Below, piece after piece: positions 13,674 to 19,812 of a stretch of 37,483 bases of DNA. The notes under the pieces were generated by a model. It saw only the letters and a program-made list of their open reading frames with translations. It was not told where the DNA came from and ran no database searches. Source of the DNA: Mycobacteriaceae bacterium (GTDB taxonomy: Bacteria > Actinomycetota > Actinomycetes > Mycobacteriales > Mycobacteriaceae); the NCBI GenBank assembly GCA_029977845.1, contig JAPOKC010000026.1, positions 1 to 37,483 of the forward strand, given 5' to 3'. A program made the translations under genes and the position numbers. Position 1 is the first letter of the stretch. Each line of letters starts with the position of its first letter.

Positions 13674-15694
13674 AAACCCTGCGACTCGCCGGCGGTGTCG
13701 GCATCGGTCTGGGCCTGGCCCTGTATGCGAGCACAGGTATTGCCGCCGCCGACCCCGCCGACCAGTCCGCGCCAAACCCGCATCGCCGATCTCCGGTCAA
13801 ACACCAAGGTGTGCAAGCACATTCGGCCCGTGCGGCGACCGACAAAGGCATCACCGTCGACCCCACCGTGGGGCTCGTGGACGGGATCATCCAGGGCAGG
13901 TTGAACGCAACCAGTTCGAGGGGCCTTCCGCTGGCCGTCACCGCTCTGGGCGGTGGCAACGGCGGCAAGCTGGCCACCGGAACAATCGCACGGGATCCGC
14001 AGACCTTCACCGCCCTGCCGTACGCCACCTGGATGGACACCGGGGTCAAAGGATCCGAGACGTTCAGTGTCCGGGTCGCCGAGGTCACTCCCTTCGATCA
14101 GGCCCTGACCGCGATCCCGGTGATCGGACTGGCCGCCGCGCCGGTGATCAGCCTGTTGCAGCAATTGCCGCTCATCAGTGATCTGCTGACCCCGCTCATC
14201 GGCGCCGCGATCGTCGCGCGGTTCGAGGTCGACACCGCCGCACTGGCCCCCGGTGGCACTCCGGTGGCCTTCACCTATCGCATCACCTCGTTCGACGGCA
14301 CCCCGATCAGCACGAACTTCTTCCCTGCGGCGGGCCTTGGAACCGGTGACACCGCGGCGATGTTGCTCTACGGCCCCGGTCTGGGTGACCGGGGCGCGAT
14401 CAATCCCTACGAGGTGGCCGGCACCGCGGACTCGGTCCCCGGCGTGTGGTTGCAACGTCGCGCCGGCTTCAACGTCATCACCTGGGATCCCCGTGGCGAG
14501 TACGACTCCGGCGGCATCATGCAGATCGACAATCCGTTCTATGAGGGCCGCGACGCCTCGGCGATCATCAGCTGGGCCGCCGCCAACACCCCGGCCGCGC
14601 TGAACAGCCCCGGTGATCCCAAGGTCGGCATGGTGGGCGGCTCCTACGGCGGCGGCATCCAGCTCGTGACCGCGAGCACCGATCCCCGTATCGACGCCAT
14701 CGCGCCGGACATCGCCTGGAATTCCACGGTCACCTCGCTGTATCCCTACGACACCTTCAAGACCACCTGGGCCAACATCCTTCTGGTGTTCCTGCTCAGC
14801 GCCCAGGCCCGGGTCAACGACCAGGTCTACCGCGGCATCACCACCGGCAACCTGCTCGGCTGGCTGAGTCCGACGTCCCTGGCCGCACTGTCGAGCACCG
14901 GACCCACCGCCCTGCTCGCCGATCTGAAGATTCCGACTCTGCTGGTGCAGGGCACCGTCGACGCGCTGTTCCCGCCCGACGAGGCGGTCGCCAACGCCGA
15001 GGCGATCCTGGCCAACCCGTGGAGCCCGGAGGTGAAGATGCTCTGGTTCTGCGGCGGGCACGGGATCTGTGTGGACCCGGAGAACCCCGGACAGCAGTCG
15101 CGGATCTTCACCGACACGCTGGCCTGGATGCGTCAGTACGTCGCCGGTGACGGATCGGCGGCCGACGCCATCCCGGCCTTCCAGTGGTACGACCAGAAGG
15201 GCGACTACTACAGCTCGATGCTGTTGCCGTTCCAGGACGGCTTCAACCAGCCGACGCCCTACACCGTCACCGGAACCGGCGGAACGCTCGGCATCGTCCC
15301 GCTGCTCGGCGGATCCGGCCTGCTGGCCACCCCGGCCGTCAATGCGATAAACCTCAGTGCCACACCGGATCTCGGGTCTCAGATCGTCGGCTCACCGCAA
15401 CTGAGCTTCAGCTACCAGGGTCTGGGCACGTCGCGGACGGTGTTCGCTCAACTCGTCGATGACGCGACCGGTCGGGTGGTCGGGCAGTTGGTGTCGCCGA
15501 TCCCGGTGACCCTCGACGGTCAGCCGCACACGGTCTCGGTCCCGATGTACGACATCGCCTACACGGTGGGGGCCGGTGACTCGCTGACCCTGCAGATCAC
15601 CAGTTCGGCCGCGATGTTCGCCAACTCCGCGATCGGGTTGATCAGCATCTCCGACCCCCGGCTGGACCTTCCCCTGCGTGCGGTGCCCGGTTAG
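13670..15694 (+). CDS. secreted alpha/beta hydrolase, S15/CocE-like peptidase family
   Basis: The 674-residue protein starts at ATG 13670, overlapping the xth stop as ATGA. A signal peptide (about 1-27, ending GIAAA-DP) predicts export. After a basic linker, a beta-rich region (about 60-270) precedes the hydrolase core: WDPRGEYDSGG, nucleophile elbow GGSYGG (Ser325), acid in VQGTVDALFPPDE (Asp431) and base in CGGHGICVDP (His464). The last 200 residues are beta-rich and resemble the jelly-roll C-terminal domain of X-Pro dipeptidyl-peptidases and cocaine esterases. The substrate is unknown. The coupling to xth and icd is unexpected for a secreted enzyme. The stop overlaps the convergent GH5 gene's stop at 15691-15694. 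Confidence 0.87.
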   Translation: MKTLRLAGGVGIGLGLALYASTGIAAADPADQSAPNPHRRSPVKHQGVQAHSARAATDKGITVDPTVGLVDGIIQGRLNATSSRGLPLAVTALGGGNGGKLATGTIARDPQTFTALPYATWMDTGVKGSETFSVRVAEVTPFDQALTAIPVIGLAAAPVISLLQQLPLISDLLTPLIGAAIVARFEVDTAALAPGGTPVAFTYRITSFDGTPISTNFFPAAGLGTGDTAAMLLYGPGLGDRGAINPYEVAGTADSVPGVWLQRRAGFNVITWDPRGEYDSGGIMQIDNPFYEGRDASAIISWAAANTPAALNSPGDPKVGMVGGSYGGGIQLVTASTDPRIDAIAPDIAWNSTVTSLYPYDTFKTTWANILLVFLLSAQARVNDQVYRGITTGNLLGWLSPTSLAALSSTGPTALLADLKIPTLLVQGTVDALFPPDEAVANAEAILANPWSPEVKMLWFCGGHGICVDPENPGQQSRIFTDTLAWMRQYVAGDGSAADAIPAFQWYDQKGDYYSSMLLPFQDGFNQPTPYTVTGTGGTLGIVPLLGGSGLLATPAVNAINLSATPDLGSQIVGSPQLSFSYQGLGTSRTVFAQLVDDATGRVVGQLVSPIPVTLDGQPHTVSVPMYDIAYTVGAGDSLTLQITSSAAMFANSAIGLISISDPRLDLPLRAVPG

Positions 15695-18600
15695 ACGGCC
15701 ACCACCCGGTCGCTGATCGTCCCGGCGCCCGATCCGTCGACGATCCTCGCCCCGGACGGAGTCGACAGCGTCACGGTGAACGTCTCCCTGGTCTCGGCGG
15801 TGACGTCAGCGTTGACGATGATCGCGATGGTCTTGCTGGTCTCACCTGGCGCGAAAATGATGGTGCCCGAGGAGGCGATGTAGTCGCTGCCGGCGGTCGC
15901 GGTGCCGTTGGAGGTGGCGTAGGCGACGGTGACCGCACTCGTCGAGGCCGAACTGAGTGTCACCGTGAAGACGGCCAGCGAACTCCCGCCGGCGGAGGTG
16001 AACTCGATCGGGGTGAGGTAGGCCATCTTGTTGGTGTTGACGGTGAGCCAGTCGTCGGCCAGGACGCCGCCGGTGTCCCCGGAGTTGGGGTTCCAGGACC
16101 AGTAGGTCCAACTGATGTTCTGGGTGCCGGCGGGGATGTCTCTGGTGCCGTCGTTGTTGAGGTCTCCGGAGATGTAGGAGGTGATCGCCTCGAGCCAGAC
16201 GGCGTCCTTGGGGTCGGTCAGTTTGGTGCCGAACTCTCCGATGTAGACCGGAGCGATGTTCAGTTCGTAGATGTAGCCCCACATCTGGCGGAACTTGGCG
16301 GGTAGGCCGGCACCGAAATCGGCGGTCTGGAACCAGGTCTGGGGGAAGACCGAGTTGGGGTAGTCGTGCGGGGAGTACACGACCCGGTTGGCGACGTTGA
16401 GCACGATCGGCCGGTCTTTGACGCCCAGCAGGTTGCCGCCCCACCAGTAGTTCTGCCCCTGGTAGCTTTCAACGCCCTCGACGAACACCAGCAGGTTGGG
16501 GTTGGCTCCCAGTGCGGCGTTTCCGGCCCGCTCGGCCGCTCGCGCCCAGTCGGTGGCCCCGCCGCCGCCCCAGGTGCCGTTGTGCGGTTCGTTGTGCAGG
16601 TCGACGCCGATCACCGTCGGGTTGTTCTTGTAGCGGGCGGCCAGGGTGGCCCAGTCGGCTACCCAGGCATCCTCGGTGTAGGTGCTGTCGTACCACAGTC
16701 CGTTGTCGGAGGTGCCCGCGCCGGCGCCGCTGCGGTGATGGTCGAGGATCACCCGCATGCCCTGTTGTCCGGCGTAGGCGACGATCGCGTCCATCACCTG
16801 CAGGCCCGAGAGGCCCTGCAGGTCAGGGTTTTTGGAGAAATCGATGCCGTTGGGTGCGGCGGTGGTGTGTAGCAGTTCGCTGGAGAACGGCAGCCGGATG
16901 GTGTTGAAACCGAGTGCGGCCATCTGGTTGATCATGTCTCTGTAGCTGCGTGTCCACAGCCCGTGCGGCGCCTGGGTGGTGGACTCCATACCGAACCAGT
17001 TGACTCCGGAGATCGCCACCGTCTTGCCCTGGGAGTCCAGGATCTGGTTGCCGGCGGTGTGCAGGAAGCCCGGGGCCATCCCGCCGGATCCCGGCTCGGT
17101 GGCCGAGGCATCGGAGATACTGACACCCGGCGTCAGGGGTGCTGCCACATCGTCGTTGAGGATGGTCCCGATTGCCGTCGCGCGGGCGATGGTGACACCC
17201 GAGGGATTCGACAGGGTGACGGTGAAGGTCTCGTCGGGTTCTACGGTGGCGTCGCCGAGGATGCCCACATGCACCGACTGCGAGGTCACGCCGGGGACGA
17301 AGGTGATGGTCCCGGAACCGGCCGTGTAGTCGACGCCGGCGGTAGCGGTGCTGTTGGCGGTCGCATAGGCCACGCTGACCGGGGTGGCCGATGCCTTGTC
17401 CAGGGTTGCGACGAACATGAAGTGGGCGTGCTCACCGTTGCCCTCGATCACCGCGAGATCGGCGATGGACACCTTCGGCGCCACTCCCGGCGACGGGTCG
17501 AGGTCGTCGTTGGTGATGGTGCCCGTCGCGGTGGCATCAGCGACGGTGGCGTTCGATGCGTTGGACAGGTTCATCGTGAACTGCTCGTTGAGCTCGTACA
17601 GGGTGTCACCGTTGATGGCGACGCTGACGGTCTTGGCGGTGTCGCCCGGCGCGAAGCTCAGTGTGCCCACCGTCGGGATGTAGTCGCCGGCGGTCGCGGT
17701 GTCGTCACTCGTGGTGTAGCCCACACTCACGGTGTTGGTGGAGGGTTTGGACAACTGGACCGTGAAGGTCATCGCGGAGGTGCCGGTATTGCCCTCGGCG
17801 GTGCTGCGATCGGCCACCGACAGGGTCGGAAGTGGAGTCGCCGGAGCCGCACCGAAGATCAGGTTCTGCCACTTGGTGCGCGCGCTGCTGTCCAGGGCGA
17901 CGATATTGCCGGTCTGCAGCTGGCCGAGGGTGACCCCCGTCAGGGTGTAGCTCTGGTTGTTGCCGACGATCGTGATCCTGGTCGATCCGCCGGCGTCGGT
18001 GACATCGAACTCCGGCGCCTTGAACCAGCCGAAGTCGAGTTTGTCCTTGGCCGGGTCGAACGCCAGCGCCGTGTTGGTGCCGTACCTCCACGCGATGACG
18101 GTGGTCGTCCCCACCTGGCCGGACGGAGGCGTCCCGTTGCCGGCGGCAGTAGGCCAGACAGTGGTGCCGGCGATCGGCACACCCTGAGGCTTGATCTGGG
18201 AATCAGGCATCGAGGTGAAGCCGAGTTGCTTGTACAGCGAGTCCTCCCGCACCTGGGCGAAGTGGAAGACGAAGTTCGCTGCGCTCAACTGGCTCTTGGT
18301 GACACCCTTGAGGATCAGCGATTGGCCGGTACCGGCATTGGAGATGATGATGCCGTTGGGGCTGTCGGCCATGTACAGCTGTTCGCGGGTGCCGAAGTAG
18401 CGGAAGTCAACGACATCGGTGGCCGGGTTGAACGCCACGGTGTCGACCTGGCCCACCTCGTGCGAACGCATGTAGACCGTGTTGGGTGCGGCTGTCACGC
18501 CGTGCTCCCAGGCCAGCGCGCCGGAAAGGTCCTGTCGGAGATGATCGTTGATGATCGGAGTGAAGTTGTCGACGGTCAGCTGGCCGAGTGACACCCCCTG

Positions 18601-19812
18601 CAGGATCGCGGTCTCGCCCGTCCACGGACTGCGGAAGCCGACCCCGTCCGGGGTGTCGACGACGATGAAGTTGTGCACCGACACGTCGCCGAGGTCGAGT
18701 TTGTCCTTCGCGGGGTTGAATCCGGTGATATCGGGTCCGGCGGCAGTGATGGTGTAGGTCCTTCCGGTACTCGTGCCGGTGTTCGGTGCAGTGTTGGTGA
18801 TGGTGCCGGTTGCGGTGGCCGCGGTGATGGTTGCACCGGTCGGGTTCGACAGTGTGACGGTGAACGTCTCACTGGCCTCGACGGTGGTGTCGGCAAGGAT
18901 CGGCACGCTGATCTGCTGGGAAGTCACCCCCGGGGCAAACGACACCGTGCCCGAGACCGCGGAGTAATCGGAGCCCGCGGTGGCCGTTGCGTTGCCCGTG
19001 GCATAGCCCACGGTGACCGCAGTCGCCGACGCCTTGGACAGCGTCACCGGGAAGACGGCCGTGCCCGACCCGGTGGCCGGTTCGGCCACCGTCACAGCGC
19101 CCACCGAAACCGCCGGCGGAGCTGCTGACGGAGGGGGGCTTGCGACACCGTTGAGTTGCAGACCGGTCACCGCCGAACCGCCCGCACCAGTGGCGGCCTG
19201 GAACCCGAACGACACACTCTGACCGGCTGCCAACTGGCCGTTCCACGCGGCGTTGCTCACCACATAAACGTCACCGACATGACTGGAGACCACCCCGTTC
19301 CACAGGTTCGTGATCAGCGCCGGAGTATTGAAACTCACCGCCCAACCGTTCAAAGCACCCGAACCCGCCGACACGGTCACATTCCCGATGAATCCCGCAC
19401 CCCAGTTATCGCCGACGCTGTAGGTGACTGCCGGGTTGGCCGATGTCGCGGCCGTCGCCGGGTTCGTCGCGGTGATCGCGCCCCTGATGCGTCGGTTGGT
19501 CCGGTTGACCTCGCGGCTCGTCAGAGACATTGCGGCCGTGACCAAGTCCAGCCGCCCCGCCGGCGTCCCGCCAACGACGGCGGCGGCCTTTGCCACCGTC
19601 AGCGCGGGCGCCGACCTGACGGGTTGGAGATTGCGCGCTCCGGACCGGGGTGAGGGTGCCGAGTTCGAGGATGACGTCGAGGAGGAAGTCGGTGAATTAG
19701 TCGGCTCGTCTGGGGCGGCCACGCAAGGAGCGGCGGCCACTACACCGCCGATACCCAAAGCGACGGCCAGGGCGCCGACGCGGCCTACGGAAATGAATTC
19801 TGCAGCGAACAT
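15691..19812 (-). CDS. secreted modular cellulase-like protein: CBM2, Calx-beta repeats, GH5 catalytic domain
   Basis: The protein has 1373 residues from ATG 19812 (ribosome-binding AGAGG upstream; the longer open frame to 20037 is not coding). Order: signal peptide (1-33), Ser/Thr/Pro linker, CBM2-type carbohydrate-binding domain (about 126-222, Trp137, 157, 171, 190), Calx-beta 1 (236-340), three related modules of about 70 residues (351-416, 450-515, 570-640), Calx-beta 2 (663-771) and 3 (779-888), then a Calx-beta first strand (896-910) interrupted by a GH5 cellulase domain (911-1270), and the rest of that Calx-beta (1276-1369). GH5 catalysis: acid/base Glu1075 in HNEP and nucleophile Glu1193 in IGEFG; Arg973, His1149 and SWTYWSW are also present. 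It should bind and cut beta-glucans outside the cell. TetR-type control is likely. Confidence 0.92.
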   Translation of the reverse strand: MFAAEFISVGRVGALAVALGIGGVVAAAPCVAAPDEPTNSPTSSSTSSSNSAPSPRSGARNLQPVRSAPALTVAKAAAVVGGTPAGRLDLVTAAMSLTSREVNRTNRRIRGAITATNPATAATSANPAVTYSVGDNWGAGFIGNVTVSAGSGALNGWAVSFNTPALITNLWNGVVSSHVGDVYVVSNAAWNGQLAAGQSVSFGFQAATGAGGSAVTGLQLNGVASPPPSAAPPAVSVGAVTVAEPATGSGTAVFPVTLSKASATAVTVGYATGNATATAGSDYSAVSGTVSFAPGVTSQQISVPILADTTVEASETFTVTLSNPTGATITAATATGTITNTAPNTGTSTGRTYTITAAGPDITGFNPAKDKLDLGDVSVHNFIVVDTPDGVGFRSPWTGETAILQGVSLGQLTVDNFTPIINDHLRQDLSGALAWEHGVTAAPNTVYMRSHEVGQVDTVAFNPATDVVDFRYFGTREQLYMADSPNGIIISNAGTGQSLILKGVTKSQLSAANFVFHFAQVREDSLYKQLGFTSMPDSQIKPQGVPIAGTTVWPTAAGNGTPPSGQVGTTTVIAWRYGTNTALAFDPAKDKLDFGWFKAPEFDVTDAGGSTRITIVGNNQSYTLTGVTLGQLQTGNIVALDSSARTKWQNLIFGAAPATPLPTLSVADRSTAEGNTGTSAMTFTVQLSKPSTNTVSVGYTTSDDTATAGDYIPTVGTLSFAPGDTAKTVSVAINGDTLYELNEQFTMNLSNASNATVADATATGTITNDDLDPSPGVAPKVSIADLAVIEGNGEHAHFMFVATLDKASATPVSVAYATANSTATAGVDYTAGSGTITFVPGVTSQSVHVGILGDATVEPDETFTVTLSNPSGVTIARATAIGTILNDDVAAPLTPGVSISDASATEPGSGGMAPGFLHTAGNQILDSQGKTVAISGVNWFGMESTTQAPHGLWTRSYRDMINQMAALGFNTIRLPFSSELLHTTAAPNGIDFSKNPDLQGLSGLQVMDAIVAYAGQQGMRVILDHHRSGAGAGTSDNGLWYDSTYTEDAWVADWATLAARYKNNPTVIGVDLHNEPHNGTWGGGGATDWARAAERAGNAALGANPNLLVFVEGVESYQGQNYWWGGNLLGVKDRPIVLNVANRVVYSPHDYPNSVFPQTWFQTADFGAGLPAKFRQMWGYIYELNIAPVYIGEFGTKLTDPKDAVWLEAITSYISGDLNNDGTRDIPAGTQNISWTYWSWNPNSGDTGGVLADDWLTVNTNKMAYLTPIEFTSAGGSSLAVFTVTLSSASTSAVTVAYATSNGTATAGSDYIASSGTIIFAPGETSKTIAIIVNADVTAETRETFTVTLSTPSGARIVDGSGAGTISDRVVAV

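Follow-up and report, generated by a model that had tools for sequence, protein, structure and literature searches.

Domain order of a mycobacterial GH5 protein

The stretch of DNA analysed here, called the window, comprises 37,483 nucleotides of contig JAPOKC010000026.1 from a Mycobacteriaceae bacterium (assembly GCA_029977845.1). On its minus strand, an intact single open frame (15691-19812; ATG at 19812, stop at 15691) encodes a multidomain GH5 protein of 1373 residues. The sequence, judged by eye, starts with a probable signal peptide (residues 1-33; 19714-19812), and the protein is probably secreted. A CBM2 module lies at residues 129-223 (19144-19428; PF00553, E 1.5e-17), and its family membership suggests that it binds cellulose. 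Pfam assigns four Calx-beta stretches (PF03160, E 5.6e-71 for the protein) and one GH5 match at residues 926-1244. Three of the Calx-beta repeats are unbroken: repeat 1 at residues 233-340 (18793-19116), repeat 2 at 662-769 (17506-17829) and repeat 3 at 779-887 (17152-17478), with Calx profile scores of 128.5, 130.2 and 146.5 bits, respectively.

The fourth Calx-beta repeat is split. Its strand A occupies residues 895-909 (17086-17130) and contains VSISDASATEPGSGG (residues 897-911, positions 17124-17080), while strands B to G occupy residues 1274-1368 (15709-15993), near the start of which stands SSLAVFTVTLSSAS (residues 1277-1290, positions 15984-15943). Glu906 (17095-17097), invariant in 61/61 rows of the alignment used for modelling, is the last conserved residue ahead of the insert. 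Between the two parts lies the whole GH5 catalytic domain, at residues 913-1270 (16003-17076; PF00150, E 1e-48; matches to PDB 8fc0 and 1ece). The assignment of this domain to GH5 rests on the profile match, the barrel fold and both catalytic glutamates: Glu1075 in an NEP motif (16588-16590) and Glu1193 in GEFG (16234-16236), each invariant in the 61-row alignment, which we take from general knowledge of GH5 to be the acid/base and the nucleophile, respectively. The domain is likely a cellulase, a beta-1,4-glucan activity being suggested by analogy with endocellulase E1 and CelE2.

A reading of the sequence alone (hereafter, the sequence-only reading) had proposed that the fourth Calx-beta domain is interrupted by GH5 and then resumes, the other three repeats being contiguous. 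The open frame, Pfam and the Calx profile confirm this order, and the position given for VSISDASATEPGSGG agrees with the translation. The exact borders shift slightly, as the profile match starts at residue 895 and resumes at 1274 rather than 1277; the insert, put at about 360 residues, measures about 365 around a GH5 core of 913-1270.

The two halves of the fourth Calx-beta domain

Evidence that strand A belongs to the tail came from a Calx profile of 109 positions, built from 89 non-redundant unbroken repeats. Residues 895-914 match profile positions 1-20 and residues 1274-1368 match positions 14-108, the latter with 119.8 bits. When head and tail were joined, the score reached 136.7 bits, versus 127.1 bits for the tail without the head. 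None of 2000 shuffled heads attained 136.7 bits (best 134.7), and only 15 of 1358 windows from the same protein equalled the joined score, each lying at one of the four strand-A positions. Hence, a chance match of strand A is ruled out by the shuffles together with its occurrence in relatives. The split repeat is thus readable as a discontinuous domain: unbroken sister copies exist, three in this protein and 602 in 120 listed relatives, and the insert is a complete GH5.

In nearly all readable relatives, the two Calx halves are present or absent together. A first protein search covered 120 listed of 4422 relatives, and a second, with the GH5 domain alone, 120 listed of 5461; both samples favour close relatives of the nested query and so measure the strictness of the rule rather than the frequency of nesting across all GH5. 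GH5 was present in 118 of the 120 relatives of the first search, in 121 copies. Beside their unbroken domains, these proteins hold 116 tail halves, of which 115 come after a GH5, while the one in P0086 begins at the terminus of the protein itself. The profile found a head for 112 of the 116 tails; for the other four, the strand is visible by eye in three (two in P0037, one in P0096), the fourth being P0086. Over both searches, 242 GH5 matches in 240 listed proteins (one GH5, in P0189, being counted twice) divide into 130 with both Calx halves, 45 with neither, 4 with one and 63 that are unreadable, one side being too short. Three of the one-sided copies have strand A alone and one the tail alone: the tandem of P0079 accounts for two, P0164 has odd, possibly frameshifted sequence after GH5, and the last is P0137.

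A strand-A motif defined independently of the profile gave the same picture. Of the 129 tail-bearing copies, 125 show it upstream, against none of the 42 tail-less ones (Fisher p 9e-36, a value that ignores relatedness); the latter include P0137, which the narrower motif pattern misses. Two of the four misses keep the Glu with one unusual neighbour, and the others are P0139 and P0124. At the DNA level, 417 genome stretches encode relatives; in the best 80, which were fetched, strand A is found at 80/80 loci and the tail at 79/80, the frame in L053 ending first. Within the genomes of the window's own genus, 40 of 198 gave any match and 26, the window's own included, a near-full fragment match. 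By record names, nested copies occur in Mycobacterium, in Alphaproteobacteria such as Reyranella, Roseomonas, Azorhizobium, Xanthobacter and Ancylobacter, and in the Planctomycetes (Gemmataceae P0096, Planctomycetia P0155), so that the nested order is present in bacteria of at least three phyla. The arrangement had been called an unusual way to present a cellulase; this may hold for cellulases overall, but among the close relatives sampled it is the rule.

Structure prediction addressed the pairing of the two halves. AlphaFold was run on residues 892-1373 with 61 aligned sequences and, as a control, on the same rows cut to 892-1272. The best full model had a mean predicted local distance difference test score (pLDDT) of 84.8 and a predicted template modelling score of 0.79, the mean pLDDT of the five models ranging over 78.6-84.8. 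In it, residues 896-899 and 902-905 form strands and the tail has seven strand elements; the pLDDT is 86 for the first ten residues and 64 for the next ten. In the tail-less model, both strands turn to coil and the same blocks drop to 56 and 42. Because strand A forms with the tail and vanishes without it, its partner lies most likely within 1273-1373. The model contains strand A and the tail strands expected of a seven-strand sandwich, with A predicted to depend on the tail; strand A most likely pairs with the tail, and the two are predicted to form one sandwich. The sequence-only reading would have failed had strand 897-911 not paired with 1276-1369; as far as tail removal in models can probe this, the pairing holds.

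The crystallised construct of CelE2 (PDB 8fc0) bears on the same point. It starts with SISDASATEPGSGG, carries strand A and stops where the Calx tail begins. Across eight chains, 346-364 of its 381 residues are visible, and the match to chain B starts at the equivalent of residue 911. These chain lengths and match ranges, rather than the entry itself, suggest that strand A is unseen in 8fc0, apparently lacking coordinates, as would be expected of a strand whose partner tail is absent.

Several observations weigh against a single nested domain. Scored alone, the strand-A head gives only 1.1 bits. Its partner was assigned by removing the tail and not by hydrogen-bond contacts. Fold searches with the model are uninformative on the tail, since GH5 chains fill the matches listed and no Calx-beta chain appears among them. 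In P0137, a strand-A-like stretch precedes GH5 while a CBM2 takes the place of the tail, possibly a decayed or replaced host domain, and P0139 is one relative without the Glu. Overall, the profile, the both-or-neither pattern in relatives and the paired structure predictions support nesting. Separately, residues 679-783 of PDB 9xg1, a protein-asparaginase, match the Calx repeat profile over its full length, strand A included, and this bacterial entry might serve as a template when modelling the split repeat.

Calcium ligand columns and the position of the enzyme

Among the known systems nearest to the split domain is CBD1 of the sodium/calcium exchanger NCX1. Its calcium ligands are listed as E385, D421, D446, D447, I449, E451, D498, D499 and D500, with E454 at the Ca1 site; CBD1 without calcium is stated to lose structural integrity, and the domain next to it to be tethered by calcium (PMC3386913). 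In the tail of the split Calx-beta (within 15709-15993), D1310, D1336, E1340 and E1343 align, in an ungapped match whose numbering is set by residue E454K of 3us9, with NCX1 D421, D447, E451 and E454. D1310, D1336 and E1343 are invariant in the 61-row alignment and E1340 is kept in at least 90% of rows. Among distinct sequences of partial Calx domains, the four acids after the insert are conserved as D 160/160, D 156/160, E 150/160 and E 154/160, and the column before the insert is Glu in 126/126 heads. Glu906, at the end of strand A, would be placed opposite the NCX1 ligand E385. With a Glu before the insert and acids after it, calcium would bridge the split. The ligand columns are kept in part, and the split Calx-beta is a likely candidate for calcium binding.

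These columns also hold points that tell against a calcium-pinned split. The 126/126 count is inflated, the profile having been trained on repeats picked by a Glu-demanding pattern, and the acid counts cover partial Calx domains whose adjacency to GH5 was not confirmed one by one. Sequence matches to NCX1 start after strand A, so none reaches Glu906 and E385; in the nearest, repeat 2 (675-757) against 3us9 24-106, ungapped extension would set E385 just past the Glu, off by a single residue. Searched against solved structures, a profile built from 12 unbroken repeats again matched NCX1 only beyond strand A. NCX1 D499 and D500 are mostly replaced in nested copies, by Arg and others, where unbroken repeats mostly keep NDD, and the position equivalent to D446 is not acidic in the split domain. 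Hence, any calcium sites would be partial, with fewer ligands. Nested Calx-beta domains, whose end lies at about 15694-15712 in this protein, often finish in D-R-x where unbroken repeats mostly finish in N-D-D; this ending is possibly a signature of the nested form and may reflect either changed calcium sites or contact with GH5.

From these elements we lean, by somewhat more than even chances, towards a model in which the two halves flanking the GH5 domain join at its base to form a single sandwich, likely pinned by calcium. The secreted protein would hold cellulose by its CBM2, and the Calx-beta repeats would serve as stiff spacers. The last repeat would grip the enzyme at both ends, two short linkers replacing one flexible linker. 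Glu906 together with D1310, D1336, E1340 and E1343 would share bound calcium and staple both halves. The gain may be an enzyme held at both ends on a domain that locks upon calcium binding.

In the CBD1 topology, the end of strand A, the start of strand B and the chain exit all lie at the calcium pole. As the split Calx-beta is the last domain of this protein, the enzyme more likely caps the chain tip than bulges from a rod, and GH5 probably sits at the tip. The earlier picture of the enzyme as a bulge on a beta-sandwich rod is thus the less likely one here. Of 114 nested copies in the relatives of the first search, 51 have at most 40 residues after Calx, some of which may be cut at contig ends, and 63 have at least 90. 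A mid-chain position therefore occurs in relatives, in many of which the enzyme would branch off where two domains meet.

Three other readings were weighed against a calcium-pinned nested domain. The most serious, which we regard as possible but tentative, accepts the nesting and gives calcium no part: the acids would be kept for the fold and the sole gain would be two-end anchoring. It draws on the loss of most D499 and D500 equivalents in nested copies and on the fact that no alignment supports the equivalence of Glu906 and E385, the calcium proposal being read from sequence; it has to explain the 94-100% retention, among nested tails, of four ligand-aligned acid columns, and a nearly invariant Glu.

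The remaining two deny that the halves close on each other within one chain. A domain swap, in which strand A would complete the tail of a neighbouring molecule, is the kind of arrangement that a single-chain prediction is unable to reveal, but the single-chain model does form strand A when its own tail is present, and the stretch from the Glu to the start of GH5 spans just 4-13 residues in the counted relatives, which leaves little slack; we regard it as very unlikely. More improbable still is a linear order, as drawn in the published descriptions consulted, of GH5 followed by a Calx-beta without strand A, VSISDASATE being a leftover linker. Pfam does report the tail as an ordinary match, and the Azospirillum paper writes GH_5 - CalX-beta (PMC3245306). 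Against this, strand A accompanies the tail in nearly all readable copies and forms in models only with the tail.

Genomic setting, modularity and known systems

The GH5 gene lies in a 2.79 Mb assembly that is 73% complete, and its neighbours encode Icd, an S15-type hydrolase, TrpS, a BrkB protein and a D-Ala-D-Ala carboxypeptidase. Among the best 80 of the 417 genome loci, the closest plausibly named records belong to Mycobacterium and other actinobacteria. Icd and/or TrpS stand within the fetched flanks of 13 of the 80 loci, all with actinobacterial titles, which points to a chromosomal place common to some of the closest relatives. Three metagenome-assembled genome records titled Bifidobacterium breve (L009, L010, L011) carry the gene with 86-87% identity; their titles look wrong, and the L011 locus has Icd and MetZ as neighbours. 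A second Calx-beta gene, 47-59% identical to the tail, was seen on another contig of the same genome (G000:C118:4794-5621; L004, L005, L007). In a genus relative, a second copy appears as two overlapping pieces in different frames (G053:C5:117397-118838), probably a broken or misassembled gene. Within the protein itself, residues ~350-655 (17848-18765), between Calx-beta 1 and 2, form three imperfect repeats of the type FNPAKDKLDLG...L.GV...L...NF. A Pfam search of the protein gave no match for them; by eye only, they resemble repeats of secreted calcium-binding proteins.

A GH5 tree was computed from a de-duplicated set of 155 of the 242 matches. The set comprised 84 nested and 2 tandem copies, 44 that were bare on either side of GH5, and 25 that, having no strand A and too little sequence on the C side to be judged, were counted as bare. 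It excluded incomplete copies, those whose N side was unreadable and the remaining one-sided copies. Mapping the nested label onto this unrooted tree takes 10 changes, of which well-supported branches force at least 5; with five long-branch rows dropped (150 rows), 9 changes are needed. A single clade of nested GH5 was rejected on the 150 rows (approximately unbiased test, p-AU 1e-55). The tree being unrooted, repeated insertion and repeated loss are indistinguishable. The closest relative of a nested Calx tail was the nested tail of another protein for 125 of 138 and an unbroken domain for 13, which does not settle the origin.

In P0079, two GH5 domains stand in tandem inside one split Calx-beta (residues 133-964, with a gap of 725 residues), and P0037 and P0096 have two nested units each; the insert thus behaves as a module. 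A third search, for Calx-array proteins (120 listed of 7211), gave 1980 unbroken domains and 93 partial matches, 81 of the latter with a gap of less than 40 residues to the preceding domain. For the 12 partial matches with longer gaps, the printed context inspected by eye showed no insert, P0260 being unclear. The split Calx-beta as a port for any insert was rejected: the split was met only with GH5, other enzymes not having been surveyed. We regard it as unlikely that GH5 enzymes entered the loop joining strands A and B (AB loop), at the calcium pole, repeatedly in separate bacterial lineages, so that the loop would be a port for recurrent docking, and that calcium ligands flanking the insertion turn the host domain into a calcium-operated clasp by which the enzyme shifts between a rigid and a loose tether.

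GH5 beside Calx-beta has been in print since 2011, when the pair was described in Azospirillum; the same two domains occur there, in Alphaproteobacteria, and are given in linear order (PMC3245306). No report of the nested order was found in the literature searched, which did not extend to the full text of the CelE2 paper. The pairing of GH5 with Calx-beta is known, and within that scope the nested order is apparently new.

CelE2 (PDB 8fc0) has the same GH5, with 76% identity over 359 aligned residues. It is a metagenome-derived GH5 endoglucanase with a Calx-beta (Pimentel et al. 2023, Enzyme Microb. Technol. 165:110206). The Calx-beta is reportedly described as a C-terminal domain, the isolated tail as unfolded, and the melting temperature of the cut enzyme as about 4-5 degrees lower. 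Were this the case, the unfolded isolated tail and the lower melting of the cut enzyme would both follow from nesting. Should the Calx-beta indeed begin ahead of GH5, cutting constructs at the customary border would divide a single fold in two. Nesting, if true, would also account for the strand apparently unseen in 8fc0; it would guide enzyme engineers in the choice of cut sites and offer a natural both-end clamp by a domain of a calcium-binding family.

The solved structure of endocellulase E1 of Acidothermus cellulolyticus (PDB 1ece) differs from the protein described here, as it comprises just the catalytic domain, with no surrounding Calx-beta. NCX1 CBD1 shares the Calx-beta fold with the split domain: the repeats and the tail match it in sequence, with acids at four ligand columns. 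In contrast, the AB loop of CBD1 carries no enzyme, and CBD1 serves a regulatory role in a transporter and has a more complete set of calcium ligands.

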